A stretch of 64,000 nucleotides of DNA from Actinoalloteichus hoggarensis (GTDB lineage Bacteria > Actinomycetota > Actinomycetes > Mycobacteriales > Pseudonocardiaceae), in the NCBI RefSeq assembly GCF_002234535.1, contig NZ_CP022521.1, positions 6,060,001-6,124,000 on the forward strand, read 5' to 3'. Below are positions 14,909 to 52,131 of the stretch, piece after piece. Each line of letters starts with the position of its first letter. Within the stretch, counting starts at the first letter, position 1. The notes below the pieces were generated by a model. That model saw only the letters and a program-made list of their open reading frames with translations. It was not told where the DNA came from and searched no databases. A program made the position numbers and the translations under genes.

Positions 14909-15205
14909 TCAGTTCACGACGGCCAGCACGTCGCGCGCGGAGAGGATCAGGTACTCCTCGCCGTTGTACTTGACCTCGGTGCCGCCGTACTTCGAGTAGA
15001 TGACGACGTCGCCGACGGCGACGTCCAGCGGGACCCTGTTGCCGTTGTCGTCGACACGACCCGGTCCGACGGCCAGGACCTTGCCCTCCTGGGGCTTCTC
15101 CTTGGCCGTGTCCGGGATGACGAGCCCGGACGCGGTCGTCGTCTCGGCCTCGCTCGCCTGGACGACGATCTTGTCCTCAAGTGGCTTGATGTTCACGCTC
15201 GCCAC
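14909..15205 (-). CDS. groS: Co-chaperonin GroES (10 kDa)
   Basis: A 98-residue co-chaperonin that caps GroEL. It shows the [11 protein letters not shown] start, the mobile loop ([21 protein letters not shown]), the [10 protein letters not shown] roof segment and a [24 protein letters not shown] finish. The GTG at 15205 follows GGAGGT by seven bases. Its promoter overlaps a CIRCE operator, so it is expected to be HrcA-repressed and heat-inducible. Confidence 0.97.
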
Positions 15206-15650: not shown

Positions 15651-16814
15651 TCACCGGCTGGGCGGCAGCACCCAGCGACGCGGGCCGTCGGGCTCGTCCA
15701 GCCACACGGTGTGCAGACCGTCGGGCCGGACCGTCAGCCCGAGGCGCCCCCAGTCCGGGCGATCGAGGTCCTCCCACTCGCGGACGGCCCGCTCCAGCCG
15801 ATCCCAGATCTGGACGGGGCCGCCCTGCCGGACCACCCGCCTCCCCGTGTCGTCCGCGCGCACCGCCACCTCGCACCAGGAACCGTCGGCGGCGGCGACC
15901 GTCGACCACCGGGGACCGCCGCCCGCCGCCCGGCCCCGGAGTCCGATCGAGACGATGCACGGCAGCTCCGCCTGCGCCAGGAACCACGGCACCAGTTCGC
16001 TCGCGGGCTCCGAGTCGAGCGCCGTCATCCCTTGCACGCCCGCCGCGCGGGGCGGCGGCTCGGGGCGGCCCGCGTCGCATGCGGCGCCGCGCAACGCCAT
16101 GAACGCCGCCCACCGGGGGAGGAATCGACCTTCCAACCGGTCATGGCGGCGACGCAGGCAGACGAGGCTGCCCGCGTGCAACGCGGCCTTGAGATCCGTG
16201 AGCACGAGACCGCCGGGGCGGGTCTGCTCCGCCCACGCCCACGGCACCCGCCGCACCGAGCACGTCGCGATGATCCGGTCGTACGGGGCATGGCCGGGAA
16301 GTCCCTCCGCGCCGTCGGCGGCGAGAAGAGTCGGGGCAAGGCCGAGGGAGGCCAGTCGCAGGCGAGCGAGGTCGACCAGTTCGGTCTCGATGTCCACGGA
16401 GAAGACCCGCTCGGCGCCGAGCAGACGGCTCAGCAGCGCCGCGTTGTAGCCCGTGCCGGTGCCGATCTCCAGCACCCGCGAGTCGTCGTCGAGCCGGAGC
16501 GCCTCGATCATCCGCGCCATGAGCCCCGGCTTCGTCGACGACGACATCACGATCCGCTGCCCGTCGGCCAGTTCTCCCAGGGCCGTCACCAGGGGGCGAT
16601 CCGCATAGACCTCGTCGAGATACCCCGGGGTCGTCTGATCACCGCGCATCCAGTCTCCCTCGGGCGTCTGCACGAAGAACCGGGGTACGAACACGTGGCG
16701 CGGAGTCGCCTCGATCGCGGCCCGCAGCGCGGGGTCATGGATCACGTCATCGTCCCAGAGCCGAGCGCCGAGACTTCGCGCCGCCCGAACCCACTCATCG
16801 GCTGGTGTGGTCAT
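15651..16814 (-). CDS. PIMT-like methyltransferase of an ATP-grasp peptide maturase system
   Basis: A 387-residue protein. Residues about 1-215 are a protein-L-isoaspartate methyltransferase domain with ATPRHVFVPRFF, SSSTKPGLMARMIEAL and the SAM-binding VLEIGTGTGYNAALLSRLLG. The remaining ~170 residues (YDRIIATCSVRRVPWAW onward) form the C-terminal extension typical of RiPP-associated members. In fuscimiditide biosynthesis such an enzyme methylates one Asp, which cyclises to aspartimide; I infer the same here. Its ATG at 16814 overlaps the maturase stop by 4 nt (ATGA), so it is translationally coupled. A longer upstream frame is open but would run into the maturase gene. Confidence 0.87.
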   Translation of the reverse strand: MTTPADEWVRAARSLGARLWDDDVIHDPALRAAIEATPRHVFVPRFFVQTPEGDWMRGDQTTPGYLDEVYADRPLVTALGELADGQRIVMSSSTKPGLMARMIEALRLDDDSRVLEIGTGTGYNAALLSRLLGAERVFSVDIETELVDLARLRLASLGLAPTLLAADGAEGLPGHAPYDRIIATCSVRRVPWAWAEQTRPGGLVLTDLKAALHAGSLVCLRRRHDRLEGRFLPRWAAFMALRGAACDAGRPEPPPRAAGVQGMTALDSEPASELVPWFLAQAELPCIVSIGLRGRAAGGGPRWSTVAAADGSWCEVAVRADDTGRRVVRQGGPVQIWDRLERAVREWEDLDRPDWGRLGLTVRPDGLHTVWLDEPDGPRRWVLPPSR

Positions 16815-17762
16815 GCCGGCTCCAATGCGAGCAGATCGGCGAGCGCGTCCGTGACGGGCAAGGAGACGACGCTCTCCAACCACCCGTACTGTCCCCCGGG
16901 ATCGCACTCGAGGAAGATCCATTCGCCATCGGGTTGAATCACGAAATCGAAGGCGCCGAAGGCGAGTCCCAGGGCACCGCAGTATCTGAGCACCCCTTCC
17001 GCGACGCTGGCAGGAGGGTCCAGTAGTTCGTAACGCGATGCCGCGTAGTCAGAACGCCAGTCAATGTGACCTCGGGCCGAGTCGGTGTCGATCCCCACCG
17101 CGAGAATCTGTTCGCCTACGACGATGAGGCGAACCTCTCGTGCTTTGACGACCCGCCTCTGGAACTGGTGGGCTGTGGTCTCCACACCTCGCAGGTCTCG
17201 CAGGTCAGCCTCGCCGAGGCGTCGAGTGAACATCGTTCGCCACTCACCTTCTTCGAAGACCGACGGTGAGGCCAGTCCTTTCGTCACTGTCTCCCTGCCT
17301 GCGGCGAATCGTAGGACCGACTCAGGACGGTTCGTGACCAAGGTGTCCGGCACCATCAACCCGCAGCGCAGTGCCGTCACCAACTGGAGAGGCTTGTAGG
17401 CCGCGTCGGCATTCCGTGCCGGGTGGTTCACCCACAACACCGGCAGAGACGCCAGTACCCCGCCGACCCCGAACTTCGCCTCCGCGGCACACCAGCGTTG
17501 CTCGGTCGGGGTGAGATGCGTGGGGAAGCGGAACGCCGACGGACGACGGCACCACACCGATCGCACCGTCTCCAACTCGATGACACGCTCTTCGAGCTGG
17601 ATCGTGCCGGCCCAACGGCCCGCGCGAATCTCGGCGTCGAAGGTGGCTGTGCGAGGAAACCAGGAGGTGTCGACGTGCTACCGGAACCTCGCGTAGTCGT
17701 AGCGCCTGGACCACACGGTCAGCTGAGAAGTCCTGCTCCGCCGCCAGTATGAGGACCGTCAT
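16811..17762 (-). pseudogene. tgmB: ATP-grasp graspetide maturase (TgmB-like), apparent frameshift
   Basis: An ATP-grasp ligase that would form side-chain ester or amide crosslinks in the precursor. From ATG 17762, frame one reads MTVLILAAEQDFSADRVVQA...LREVPVAR. At about 17675 homology jumps to the next frame (VDTSWFPRTATFDAEIRAGRW...), which runs to 16811. The total of 952 nt is 317 codons plus one base, so two bases were lost or one gained. The intact second frame holds VTKGLASP, AREVRLIVVG and the metal loop FLECDPGGQYGW, whose Asp occupies the position usually held by Asn. The start shares its A with the tgmA stop (TGATG). A 254-residue product from TTG 17575 would lack the N-terminal domain. 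A sequencing error is possible. Confidence 0.8.
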
Positions 17763-18076
17763 CAGTCGTTGATCCAGTCCACGGAACTCGGGCCGTCCTC
17801 ACCGTCGACTGATTCCGTCTTCAGCGCGGTGGGGTCTCCCGCGAGAGGCAGGTCGATCAAAGGGCGTCCGTCAGGAACCACCGACAGCTGCCGTTCGGTG
17901 TCGTAACGATGCGCGGGGACCTCCTTCCCGAATTCCGCACGGCAGGATCTGCGCAATCCCCAAGGACGGATACCGACGGGCGAGGCGGAGTCATCGCGAG
18001 ACTCAACAGCAGTGAAACCGTCCAACGGAAAGCGTTCGCTCACCGACACGATCGGTTCGGCGTCGATTGATGACAT
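17762..18076 (-). CDS. tgmA: Putative ATP-grasp-modified RiPP precursor (TgmA-like)
   Basis: A 104-residue precursor peptide. The leader (1-80) carries the family hallmark IRPWGLRR at about residues 39-46. The C-terminal putative core, from about residue 81, is rich in Thr/Ser and Asp/Glu: DPTALKTESVDGEDGPSS followed by VDWIND. Thr/Ser would be ester donors and Asp/Glu acceptors; the two Asp-Gly pairs are natural aspartimide sites. The ATG at 18076 has GGGAG about ten bases upstream. Earlier in-frame starts would add unconserved residues. It is first in the operon and coupled to the maturase by TGATG. Confidence 0.83.
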   Translation of the reverse strand: MSSIDAEPIVSVSERFPLDGFTAVESRDDSASPVGIRPWGLRRSCRAEFGKEVPAHRYDTERQLSVVPDGRPLIDLPLAGDPTALKTESVDGEDGPSSVDWIND

Positions 18077-18368: not shown

Positions 18369-19436
18369 TCAGAGCAGGATGGTCTCGACCGGCAGGGCCG
18401 GATCGGCCCCGAAGTCCGGCGGCGAGGCCGGCGCGCCCGCCGCCAGCAGCCGGGCGCCGAGAGCGGCGATCATGGCACCGTTGTCGGTGCACAGTCTCGG
18501 CCGAGGAATCCGCAGCTCGATGCCCGCCTCGGCGCAGCGGATCGCGGCGAGCCGACCCAGGCGTGAGTTCGCGGCCACGCCGCCGGAGACGACCATGGTC
18601 CGCACATCGTGGTCTCGGGCGGCACGCACCGCCTTGGCGGTCAGCACGTCCGCCACCGCCTCCTGGAACGAGGCTGCCACGTCGTCGACCGGCACCGGTT
18701 CGCCCGCGGCCTGCCGCTGCTCGACCCAACGGGCCACGGCGGTCTTCAGCCCGGAGAAGGAGAAGTCGTGTCGGGCGTCCTTCGGCCCGGTGAGTCCCCG
18801 AGGGAACGCGATGGCGGTCGGATCGCCCCGGCGGGCGGCCGCGTCGATCGGCGGGCCGCCGGGATAGGGCAGCTCCAACAGCCGGGCCACCTTGTCGTAG
18901 GCCTCGCCCGCCGCGTCGTCGATGGTCGAGCCGAGTTCGGTGATCGAACTCGCGACGTCCTCCACGAGCAGCAGCTGGGTGTGTCCGCCGGAGACCAGCA
19001 GCGCCAGACTCGGCGAGGGCAGCGGGCCGTGCTCCAGGGTGTCGACGGCCACGTGCCCCGCCAGGTGGTTGACGCCGTAGAGCGGCCGGTCGAGCGCGGC
19101 GGCGTAGGCCTTCGCGGCGGACACCCCGACGAGCAGCGCACCCGCCAGACCCGGCCCGGCGGTCACCGCGATCGCGTCGACGTCGGAGGGGCGCAGGCCC
19201 GCGTCGGCGAAGGCCTTGCGCACCATGGGGACCATCGACTCCAGGTGAGCGCGGCTCGCGACCTCGGGGACCACGCCGCCGAATCTGGCGTGCTGCTCGA
19301 CGCTGGAGGCGACGGCGTCGGCCAGGAGTTCGACCGAACCGTCGGCGTGCAGTCCGACGAGGCCGACACCGGTCTCGTCGCACGAGCTCTCGATGCCGAG
19401 TACGACGGCATCGGGTCGGTTGTTCGGCCTGGTCAT
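18369..19436 (-). CDS. tsaD: tRNA N6-adenosine threonylcarbamoyltransferase TsaD
   Basis: TsaD transfers the threonylcarbamoyl group to A37 of ANN-decoding tRNAs, acting with TsaB and TsaE. The 355-residue ASKHA-fold protein shows [13 protein letters not shown], the metal-binding [36 protein letters not shown], the FSFSGLKTA segment, [12 protein letters not shown] and CTDNGAMIA. The ATG at 19436 overlaps the rimI stop (ATGA). The open frame continues upstream through rimI only as a shadow. Confidence 0.97.
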
Positions 19437-48956: not shown

Positions 48957-49291
48957 CGAAGACGCACCTCTCGAACTCGATGTGGTGTTTGTCGCTCGAC
49001 GACATCCGATGGGCTCGACGAACGACCGGACGACGTGATGGGCGACGAGCCGCATACATTCTGATCGTTGTCTTCGAACTCCCGGACGCGAGCCTGCCGG
49101 TGCCGCCATACTAGGGTCGCTCGGCGACGGACCGGGGCGGTTTCGAACAACCAGACCTTAATGCCCGCCCCGGGCGGGAAGTGAGCGACGACAGTCTTCC
49201 GGCCTGCCACTCGGCGGCCGAGGAGCAGCCGCGATCATCGCGATGCCGCGCCGCAGGAGACTTGGACCGACGACAAGACCAGGAGACTCAA
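48957..49291. other. Divergent eccC/eccD promoter region
   Basis: 335 nt between divergent operons, presumably holding both promoters. No clear dyad or coding frame was found; frames extending eccC or eccD upstream lack conservation. Confidence 0.5.
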
Positions 49292-50695
49292 GTGGCGACC
49301 GGTACGACGGTGTTCAGCCGGGTCACGGTGGTTGCGCCGAAGACACGCATCGATGTGGCGCTGCCTGCCGATGTTGCCGTGGCCGACATCCTCCCGATGC
49401 TGCTGGAGATGGCCAAAGAGGTCACCCCGGACGGCGGCGCTCGGCACGGCGGCTGGTGCCTGACCAAGATGGGCGAGGGTCCGCTGACCCCGAATCGCAC
49501 CCTCGCCTCCCTCGGTGTGGTCGACGGGGAGATCCTGCAACTGCGGCGTCGGGTCGACAATCCGCCGCCGCCGCTCTACGACGACGTCGTCGACGCCATC
49601 TCGGACTCCGACCCGAACAGCTTCCGGCCGTGGACGAAGGAGACGGCGCACCGGCTCGGGCATCTGGCCGGCGTGCTGGCCCTGCTCGGCGCCGCCGTGG
49701 CGGTCTTCCTCGCCGGCCCGGCCAACAACCTCGCCGCCGCGATCACGGGCGGCGTCGCGGCGATCGCCGCCATCAGCCTCGGCACGGTCATCGCCCGCGT
49801 CTATCGCGCGGTGACCACCGGCCTGCTGATCGCGGCGGCGGGCGGCCTCCCGATGGCCTTCGTCTCCGGCTTCTACATCGTGCCCGGCGCCCAGCCGCGC
49901 CCGGCCTTCCTGCTGGCCTTCACGCTGATCCTGGTCGCCTCGGCGGCCTGCATCATGCTGCTGGGCACCGGCATCACCGTGTTCGTCGCCTCGGCGACCG
50001 CGGGACTCTTCGGCACCATCGCCTTCTTCATCGCGACCTTCGTCGACCACCCCGCCCCCGGCATCGCCGCGGGCGCGGCCGCGGTCGGCGTCGCGACGAT
50101 CTCGCTGCTGCCCCGCATCACCATTCAGCTGGCCAAGCTGCCGCTGCCGCAGGTGCCGGGCAACGCGGAGGACCTCAAGGAGGACGGCGGCTTCCCGGAT
50201 TACGCCGTCATCGAGCGCCGGTCCGGTCTCGCCCACGAGTACATGACCGGCATGATCATCGGCTGCGGCGCCACGGCGGCGGTCGGGTCGGTCATCGCCG
50301 CGAGCTCCGAGACCATCTGGGGGCCGATCTTCGGCGTCGTGGTGGCGATCGTGCTGCTGATGCGGTCGCGGACCTACGCCAACGGCGTCCAGGCCATCGC
50401 CCTGCTGATGTGCGGGATCGCGACCTTCGCGGGGCTCATGATCGGCTGGCTGATGCTCAGCGCGGGCGACACGCTGACGCTGCTGCTGTGGACGATGAGC
50501 AGCCTGTTGGCGCTGGCGGTGTCGGCCTTCGTCTTCGGCGTCGTCTTCCCCGAGCAGAAGTTCTCCCCCGTGCTGCGTCGCTCCGTCGACATCTTCGAGG
50601 CCGTGATGATCGCGGCCGTCATCCCGTTGGCGCTGGCGGTGATGGATCTCTACAGCACGTTCCGGCACCTGATCCAGATCGATCTGGGCTTCTAG
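49292..50695 (+). CDS. eccD: Type VII secretion integral membrane protein EccD
   Basis: The main membrane pore component. The 467 residues start with a ubiquitin-like domain (1-85, FSRVTVVAPKTRIDVALPAD..., LGVVDGEILQLRRR). About eleven membrane helices follow from residue 120 (AHRLGHLAGVLALLGAAVAVFL onward) and end near FEAVMIAAVIPLALAVMDLY. Length equals the ESX-4 EccD as I recall it. AGGAG lies six bases before the GTG at 49292; the upstream in-frame start is not conserved. mycP follows after 14 nt. Confidence 0.95.
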   Translation: MATGTTVFSRVTVVAPKTRIDVALPADVAVADILPMLLEMAKEVTPDGGARHGGWCLTKMGEGPLTPNRTLASLGVVDGEILQLRRRVDNPPPPLYDDVVDAISDSDPNSFRPWTKETAHRLGHLAGVLALLGAAVAVFLAGPANNLAAAITGGVAAIAAISLGTVIARVYRAVTTGLLIAAAGGLPMAFVSGFYIVPGAQPRPAFLLAFTLILVASAACIMLLGTGITVFVASATAGLFGTIAFFIATFVDHPAPGIAAGAAAVGVATISLLPRITIQLAKLPLPQVPGNAEDLKEDGGFPDYAVIERRSGLAHEYMTGMIIGCGATAAVGSVIAASSETIWGPIFGVVVAIVLLMRSRTYANGVQAIALLMCGIATFAGLMIGWLMLSAGDTLTLLLWTMSSLLALAVSAFVFGVVFPEQKFSPVLRRSVDIFEAVMIAAVIPLALAVMDLYSTFRHLIQIDLGF

Positions 50696-50709
50696 TCGAT
50701 GGGCTCGCG

Positions 50710-52131
50710 ATGACCTCCACCCGCATGACCCGACGTGTCTCGGCCGCCCTCGCCGCCGGGCTGCTGGCCGTGGGCCTGCCGCTGGCCGGGGCGCCCGCGT
50801 ACGCCCAGCAGTCGGACACCGAGGACACGATCACCGACGCGGCGCGGTATCCGCCGCCGGACCCGGCCCTGGTGCCGACCAATCCCGGCCCCGGCGGCGG
50901 CGATCACGCGCAGTTCGAGCCCGCCATCCAGTGCATCCAGCCGAACGGAAGCCTGCCCTCGGATCTCCAGCAGACTCCGTGGGGACAGATGTTCCTGCGG
51001 ATCGACGAGGCGCAGCAGTACGCGACCGGCGCGGGCCAGAAGGTCGCGGTCATCGACACCGGCGTCAGCGTGCACCCTCGGCTCGCGGGCCGCGTCGAGG
51101 GCGGCGGCGACTACATCGCGAACATGGACGGCCTGAGCGACTGCGACGGCCACGGCACGATCGTGGCCGGGATCATCGCGGCCGCCGAGGACCCGGTGAC
51201 CGGCTTCAAGGGCGTCGCGCCCGACGCCGAGATCCTCTCGATCCGCAACGTGTCCCACTTCTACGGCCACGTCGACCGGTTGGAGGACGACGCGATCCAG
51301 GCGGGCAACCTGGACACGATGTCGCGGGCGATCGTGCTCGCCGCCGACCGGGGCGCGACGGTGATCAACCTCTCCGAGACCGCCTGCGTCGTCTCCAGCT
51401 ACCCGAGTGACCAGTACACGGAGCGGCTGCGGGCGGCGATCGACTATGCCGTGGAGCGCGACATCGTGGTGGTCGCCGCGGCGGGCAACCACAACTCCGA
51501 CGATCCGAGCTGCGCGAACCCCAACACGCCGAACTCGCTGCAGAACCACACCTTCCCCGGTGTCTTCCCCGAGGTGCTGACGGTCGGGTCCATCGGCGGC
51601 GACGGCGCGATCTCCGACTTCTCCATCCAGGGCGAATGGGTGGACATCGTGGCGCCCGGCGAGGACATCATCTCGCTGGACCCGGCGGGCGGAGCCACCT
51701 CGCTGGCCAATCAGGTCGCCAGCTCCAACGGCGAGCTCGGGCCCATCGAGGGCACCAGCTTCTCGGCGCCCTACGTCGCCGGGGTCGCCGCGCTGGTGCG
51801 CGAACGCTACCCCGACCTCAGCGCACAGCAGGTCATCGATCGGCTGGTCAACACGGCACAGCACCCCGGCGGTCTCGAAGGCCACAGCTTCGGCGTCGGC
51901 TACGGCGTGCTCAATCCGGTGGCCGCGCTGACCGAGGTCCTTCCCGAGGAGCACGGCATCCAGCCCGCCGAGCCGCGGCAGGCACGCAACGAACTGCCCC
52001 CGATGGCCCCGTTCGACTGGACGCCCACCGTGGTGGCCGTCTCCGGCGCGGGCGGCGGCCTCGTGCTGCTGGGGATCACGCTCTTCATCGTCCGCGCCGT
52101 CCGGCATACCCGGCAGGGCAGCGAGGCCTGA
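50710..52131 (+). CDS. mycP: Type VII secretion mycosin serine protease MycP
   Basis: A subtilisin-like protease anchored outside the membrane and needed for ESX stability. The 473-residue protein has a signal peptide (VSAALAAGLLAVGLPLAGAPAYA) and the catalytic Asp (VAVIDTGVSVHP), His (DGHGTIVAGI) and Ser (GTSFSAPYVAG). A C-terminal membrane helix (VVAVSGAGGGLVLLGITLFI) precedes a short basic tail. The ATG at 50710 directly precedes the signal peptide. It ends the eccD-mycP operon before a strong terminator. Confidence 0.96.
   Translation: MTSTRMTRRVSAALAAGLLAVGLPLAGAPAYAQQSDTEDTITDAARYPPPDPALVPTNPGPGGGDHAQFEPAIQCIQPNGSLPSDLQQTPWGQMFLRIDEAQQYATGAGQKVAVIDTGVSVHPRLAGRVEGGGDYIANMDGLSDCDGHGTIVAGIIAAAEDPVTGFKGVAPDAEILSIRNVSHFYGHVDRLEDDAIQAGNLDTMSRAIVLAADRGATVINLSETACVVSSYPSDQYTERLRAAIDYAVERDIVVVAAAGNHNSDDPSCANPNTPNSLQNHTFPGVFPEVLTVGSIGGDGAISDFSIQGEWVDIVAPGEDIISLDPAGGATSLANQVASSNGELGPIEGTSFSAPYVAGVAALVRERYPDLSAQQVIDRLVNTAQHPGGLEGHSFGVGYGVLNPVAALTEVLPEEHGIQPAEPRQARNELPPMAPFDWTPTVVAVSGAGGGLVLLGITLFIVRAVRHTRQGSEA

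Follow-up and report, generated by a model that had tools for sequence, protein, structure and literature searches.

The locus between groES and tsaD

In the 64,000-nucleotide window of the Actinoalloteichus hoggarensis genome examined here (the whole stretch of DNA that was analysed), the interval between groES and tsaD holds three minus-strand coding regions (Table 1), i.e., a precursor peptide gene, sequence for an ATP-grasp maturase (17762-16811), and a gene for a PIMT-like methyltransferase, with neighbours overlapping at their start and stop codons. An initial annotation of this DNA had proposed a fuscimiditide-like graspetide cluster, and its family call was right: the NCBIfam models TIGR04186, TIGR04187, and TIGR04188 all match the trio, with only TIGR04186 passing its curated cut-off. 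Also borne out were (i) the 104-residue precursor with an IRPWGLRR motif and two Asp-Gly pairs, (ii) the PIMT-domain methyltransferase with its C-terminal extension, (iii) the overlaps between the minus-strand genes, and (iv) the placement between groES and tsaD. The two outcomes named beforehand as telling against the proposal, namely no family match and a trio missing from relatives, were both looked for, and neither was encountered. The accompanying remark that the DNA is less GC-rich holds for the maturase, whose two pieces have 62% and 64% GC, and for the last 48 codons of the precursor (64%), but not for the methyltransferase (73%).

Table 1. Position of the three-gene cluster and its neighbours in the window
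Feature	Position	Strand	Description
groES	14909..15205		flanking gene
PIMT-like O-methyltransferase	15651..16814	-	387 aa, C-terminal extension; TIGR04188 340.7 bits, below the cut-off of 380; Pfam PCMT (PF01135) 98.8 bits
ATP-grasp maturase, C-terminal piece	16811..17674	-	profile positions 30-311; 287 residues; other frame; TIGR04187 332 bits (six-frame search)
ATP-grasp maturase, N-terminal piece	17673..17762	-	profile positions 1-29; TIGR04187 21.3 bits, single frame
Graspimiditide precursor (predicted)	17762..18076	-	104 aa; leader motif RPWG; core DPTALKTESVDGEDGPSSVDWIND; TIGR04186 31 bits, cut-off 25
Tandem octamer array GCCCGCAA	18188..18300		perfect, 14.1 copies, between tsaD and precursor
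tsaD	18372..19436		flanking gene

As judged from sequence, the trio is a graspimiditide cluster, i.e., a PIMT-associated group 13 graspetide cluster of the fuscimiditide type. Compared with the features of that group, the locus contains an ATP-grasp-type RiPP precursor with an RPxG leader, a PIMT-like methyltransferase with a C-terminal extension, and a TIGR04187-homologous maturase, the last as two pieces; it lacks a single-frame maturase with an ExN motif, the frame being broken and the motif reading ECD, and it lacks the WXXXGXP motif of the methyltransferase extension. According to figures cited in PMC13001092, surveys have counted 962 and 1432 graspimiditide clusters, and the present one is most likely a further, damaged member of this known kind.

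The octamer array is probably a neighbour of the cluster, lying outside it. Queried as three consecutive copies, GCCCGCAA has a single place in this genome; the array numbers 14 copies here and 15 in the sister species (locus L055, 7247-7366), in both cases between tsaD and the precursor. It was found neither in the 14-kb locus of a third member of the genus nor in 12 other family genomes.

Core peptide and predicted product

The closest characterised counterpart is fuscimiditide of Thermobifida fusca, whose ThfA, ThfB, and ThfM likewise comprise a precursor, an ATP-grasp enzyme, and a PIMT-like enzyme (PMC12291112, PMC13003496, PMC13001092). The two leaders share an RPxG motif, which there reads RPFG and is described as a key recognition sequence for ThfB (PMC13003496); the leader reads RPWG here and RPFG in one relative (G141). 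The esters of fuscimiditide are given as Thr3-Asp22 and Thr7-Asp18 (PMC12291112). The 24-residue core at our locus carries Thr3, Thr7, Asp11-Gly12, Asp20, and Asp24, and so shows the elements of a fuscimiditide-type core, i.e., two Thr residues, an Asp-Gly loop, and two Asp residues, with nested Thr/Asp pairs in the same four-residue steps on each side (by comparison with PMC12291112). The loop aspartimide of fuscimiditide is predicted here as well. Compared by positions, the two cores differ in their acceptors and loop length, Asp18/Asp22 with a loop of 10 in fuscimiditide as against Asp20/Asp24 with a loop of 12 here. The core proposed in the initial annotation lacked the C-terminal VDWIND, site of the predicted ester-acceptor Asp residues. 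Once the C-terminus is complete, Thr3/Thr7 and Asp20/Asp24 nest as in fuscimiditide, so the suggested new ring pattern finds no support and a new ring topology was rejected.

Amycolimiditide, albusimiditide, and SsfA(BM) are further graspimiditides with stem-loop esters and a Gly after the methylated Asp; the four characterised compounds have two to five cross-links (PMC13001092), and two are predicted here. In the characterised graspimiditides, the methylated Asp sits in the loop with Gly following it (PMC13001092), which makes Asp11-Gly12 the likely aspartimide site; a core-motif analysis in the same source indicates that Arg after the methylated Asp is also possible. Across 11 cores of this type, Pro2, Ala4, Thr7, Asp11, Glu13, Asp14, Pro16, and Ser17 never vary; Thr3 occurs in 10 (Ser once), and Gly12 likewise in 10 (Arg once). 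Ten of the 11 cores were retrieved with a pattern that itself specified residues 20 to 24 (DWIND), and the invariance of Asp20 and Asp24 therefore arises partly by construction. The second Asp-Gly is not kept, since residue 15 varies (Pro in seven cores, Gly in three, Glu in one); Asp14-Gly15 was accordingly rejected as the first-choice imide site, and the 11-genome comparison of DWIND cores favours Asp11 over Asp14. No match to the 24-residue core was found in the PDB.

In its working form, the pathway would begin with the ATP-grasp enzyme binding the RPWG leader motif and joining Thr7 to Asp20 and Thr3 to Asp24 through side-chain esters, which would yield a two-rung stem and a 12-residue loop. 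The PIMT-like enzyme would then methylate Asp11 in that loop, and the methyl ester would collapse to an aspartimide with Gly12. The predicted product is a bicyclic peptide resembling fuscimiditide, with the aspartimide in its loop.

A maturase gene in two reading frames

The ATP-grasp ligase had been annotated as one gene of an implicitly working cluster, and on both counts the sequence departs from that description. When the genome was searched in all six frames, positions 1-29 of the TIGR04187 profile matched at 6077673-6077759 and positions 30-311 at 6076829-6077674 (window 17673-17759 and 16829-17674), in different frames. The break coincides exactly with the step from profile position 29 to the adjoining position 30, and nothing is missing. 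The upstream frame (17762-17322, 146 aa) covers profile positions 1-29 before ending at a stop at 17322, its remaining 117 residues matching no NCBIfam or Pfam family. In the downstream frame (17674-16811), the first ATG, GTG, or TTG start is the TTG at 17575, with none before residue 34. With hmmscan, the pieces score 21.3 and 297.2 bits, both under the TIGR04187 cut-off of 350, which is set for the whole protein; the closest PDB match of the C-terminal piece is the ATP-grasp ligase 5ig9 (E 3.4e-37). Because the maturase frame is broken, a working cluster is not supported in this genome. The maturase frame is unbroken in ten family relatives, measuring 317 aa in the sister species (G002) and 315-318 aa in eight further genomes; that of G020 gives a full-length profile match with no stop.

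Substitutions add to the frame break. Across the C-terminal 287 maturase residues of 11 copies, this genome alone departs from an otherwise uniform column nine times, and the sister once, a 9-to-1 count that was examined after the fact. In a wider maturase set (57 rows, 53 of them different, 11 of the 57 loci given having been left out as short or without a match), eight of the nine changed columns vary, and at positions 55, 59, 174, and 197 the residue seen here recurs in 8 to 13 other rows. Since eight columns thus vary, four of them with common residues, only the change in the ExN motif is a strong sign: Asn258, which we take to be a metal ligand, is replaced by Asp, whereas Asn stands in 55 of the 56 other rows and in the solved structures 5ig8 and 5ig9.

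The closest PDB relative of the methyltransferase is the PIMT 1dl5 (E 1.4e-21). The protein has two unique changes of the same kind, compared with four in the sister. The WXXXGXP motif of its extension reads WEDLDRP, with Asp in place of a Gly that is kept in 10 of 10 orthologues. Graspimiditide methyltransferases are described in PMC13001092 as inactive on linear precursors, so the enzyme would have no substrate here unless a paralogue cyclises the precursor.

Divergence from the sister species was low at nonsynonymous sites, with dN/dS values of 0.15 for the 287-codon maturase piece, 0.08 for the 29-codon piece, 0.30 for the methyltransferase, and 0.06 for tsaD. The core itself is identical in all 24 residues, its five DNA differences all being synonymous. 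Selection looks purifying, which speaks against old decay. Polarised amino-acid changes over all sites numbered 23 here and 16 in the sister (p = 0.34; a further 24 were not polarised), and the contrast of nonsynonymous to synonymous polarised changes was not significant (p = 0.68). Protein branch lengths for this species versus the sister were 0.21 versus 0.084 for the maturase and 0.25 versus 0.15 for the methyltransferase. A recent break of the maturase gene fits these data best.

Relatives, acquisition and competing explanations

The initial annotation had suggested acquisition of the cluster, and comparison within the genus supports this. The sister, too, carries the trio between groES and tsaD, with its maturase intact but its precursor leader split over two frames. 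In the third genus member (G001), a phoD phosphatase gene lies between tsaD and groES, and the 14-kb stretch searched there gave no match to precursor, maturase, or methyltransferase; TIGR04187 enzymes do occur elsewhere in that genome. Next to its trio, the sister still has parts of phoD (residues 68-232 and 579-612 of 613); no phoD match was found in the window. This arrangement fits insertion of the trio beside phoD and later loss of phoD, and the trio would have entered the groES-tsaD interval in a common ancestor of this species and its sister.

Beyond the genus, the core type was found in 11 family genomes, this one included. A 20-base pattern covering the end of the core and the start codon after it had hits in 10 of the 390 family genomes, again counting this one, and in all 10 a maturase-like start follows the core. 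The pattern undercounts, having missed G020, a true member that was found by a family profile search and motif scan. In a sample of 394 genomes from across the class, none but the window's own had a hit. Outside the genus, the trio keeps its order in the nine 10-kb loci examined, none of which gave a match to groES or tsaD. Scanning the contigs of named genomes with the maturase piece gave 14 loci, including one in Saccharopolyspora spinosa that is 51% identical. Of these loci, 13 were placed in a tree, and all fall outside the DWIND group, which has support of only 91/90.

Further maturases of this family are present in both sister genomes. This genome has four other TIGR04187 matches, two full-length (392.4 and 367.9 bits) and two weaker (84.3 and 36.4 bits). 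The paralogous clusters at G000:C1:2091531 and G000:C1:1150788 resemble our locus in pairing a full-length TIGR04187 maturase with a PIMT-like methyltransferase (47% and 41% identical, respectively), and differ from it in that their maturases belong to other clades and that the former has another core. The former region (L056, G000:C1:2088000-2096000) contains a precursor-like frame ending in GKDWKTKASSDGDEGPEEHYDWEEE, a full-length maturase, and a methyltransferase. In the sister, 13 TIGR04187 matches comprise six full-length ones, six that form four split or fragmentary places, and one weak match (78 bits) that was left out. In this genus, graspetide maturase genes may often be broken.

We consider it probable that the locus is an acquired graspimiditide cluster whose pathway was recently inactivated by the maturase frameshift, with the precursor and methyltransferase remaining as intact reading frames; loss of the product from this genome would be the expected outcome. 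The frameshift might instead be a sequencing or assembly error in a cluster that is intact and working, as would suit a single short frame-breaking difference, the low dN/dS, and the shared amino-acid sequence of the core in both species. In a census of about 54 kb aligned with the sister (mechanical open reading frames of at least 150 aa), frame switches affected 3 of 78 frames in one direction and 3 of 81 in the other. These lay at only four distinct places, so frame errors are not widespread, as far as can be seen by a census that is blind to breaks leaving one short piece, such as the maturase break described here and the precursor break of the sister. The ExN and WXXXGXP changes, moreover, are substitutions and not indels, and we regard an error as unlikely. 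That the maturase functions as two pieces or through programmed frameshifting is scarcely credible: the break does lie between adjoining profile positions with nothing missing, but it is seen in none of the 10 orthologues, on which ground a programmed frameshift was rejected; no repeated-base run is visible by eye at the break, the C-terminal frame has the late start described above, and ExN is altered.

Finally, maturation of the precursor could be supplied in trans by an intact paralogue, the ATP-grasp enzyme at G000:C1:2091531-2092496, with methylation then carried out by either the local PIMT-like enzyme or its paralogue. The local precursor frame is intact, the paralogous enzyme gives the full-length match of 392.4 bits noted above, its locus encodes the methyltransferase 47% identical to the local one as well as an open frame whose leader is similar (RPLGLRHARP, GRPLIE), and ThfB is described as tolerating varied cores (PMC12291112). 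Against this, the maturases are only 49-51% identical and belong to different clades, and leaders tend to be enzyme-specific (PMC13003496); we regard maturation in trans as quite improbable. If true, it would account for the retention of the precursor and the methyltransferase and would represent a natural example of a borrowed maturase, in which selection acts on the DWIND core although its cognate enzyme is dead.

Under the preferred reading of recent inactivation, cloning this copy unchanged would probably give no product; relatives with the same core type and unbroken frames exist. A graspimiditide locus with different genes broken in two sister species would also illustrate, on a small scale, how a RiPP pathway can be gained and soon lost; our literature search found no paper pairing graspetides with pseudogenes. 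As a separate observation from the same window, positions 49243-52128 form an open frame of 962 residues that includes a subtilase domain (residues 596-888) and whose sister counterpart switches frame near residue 487, possibly reflecting two genes or a frame difference.
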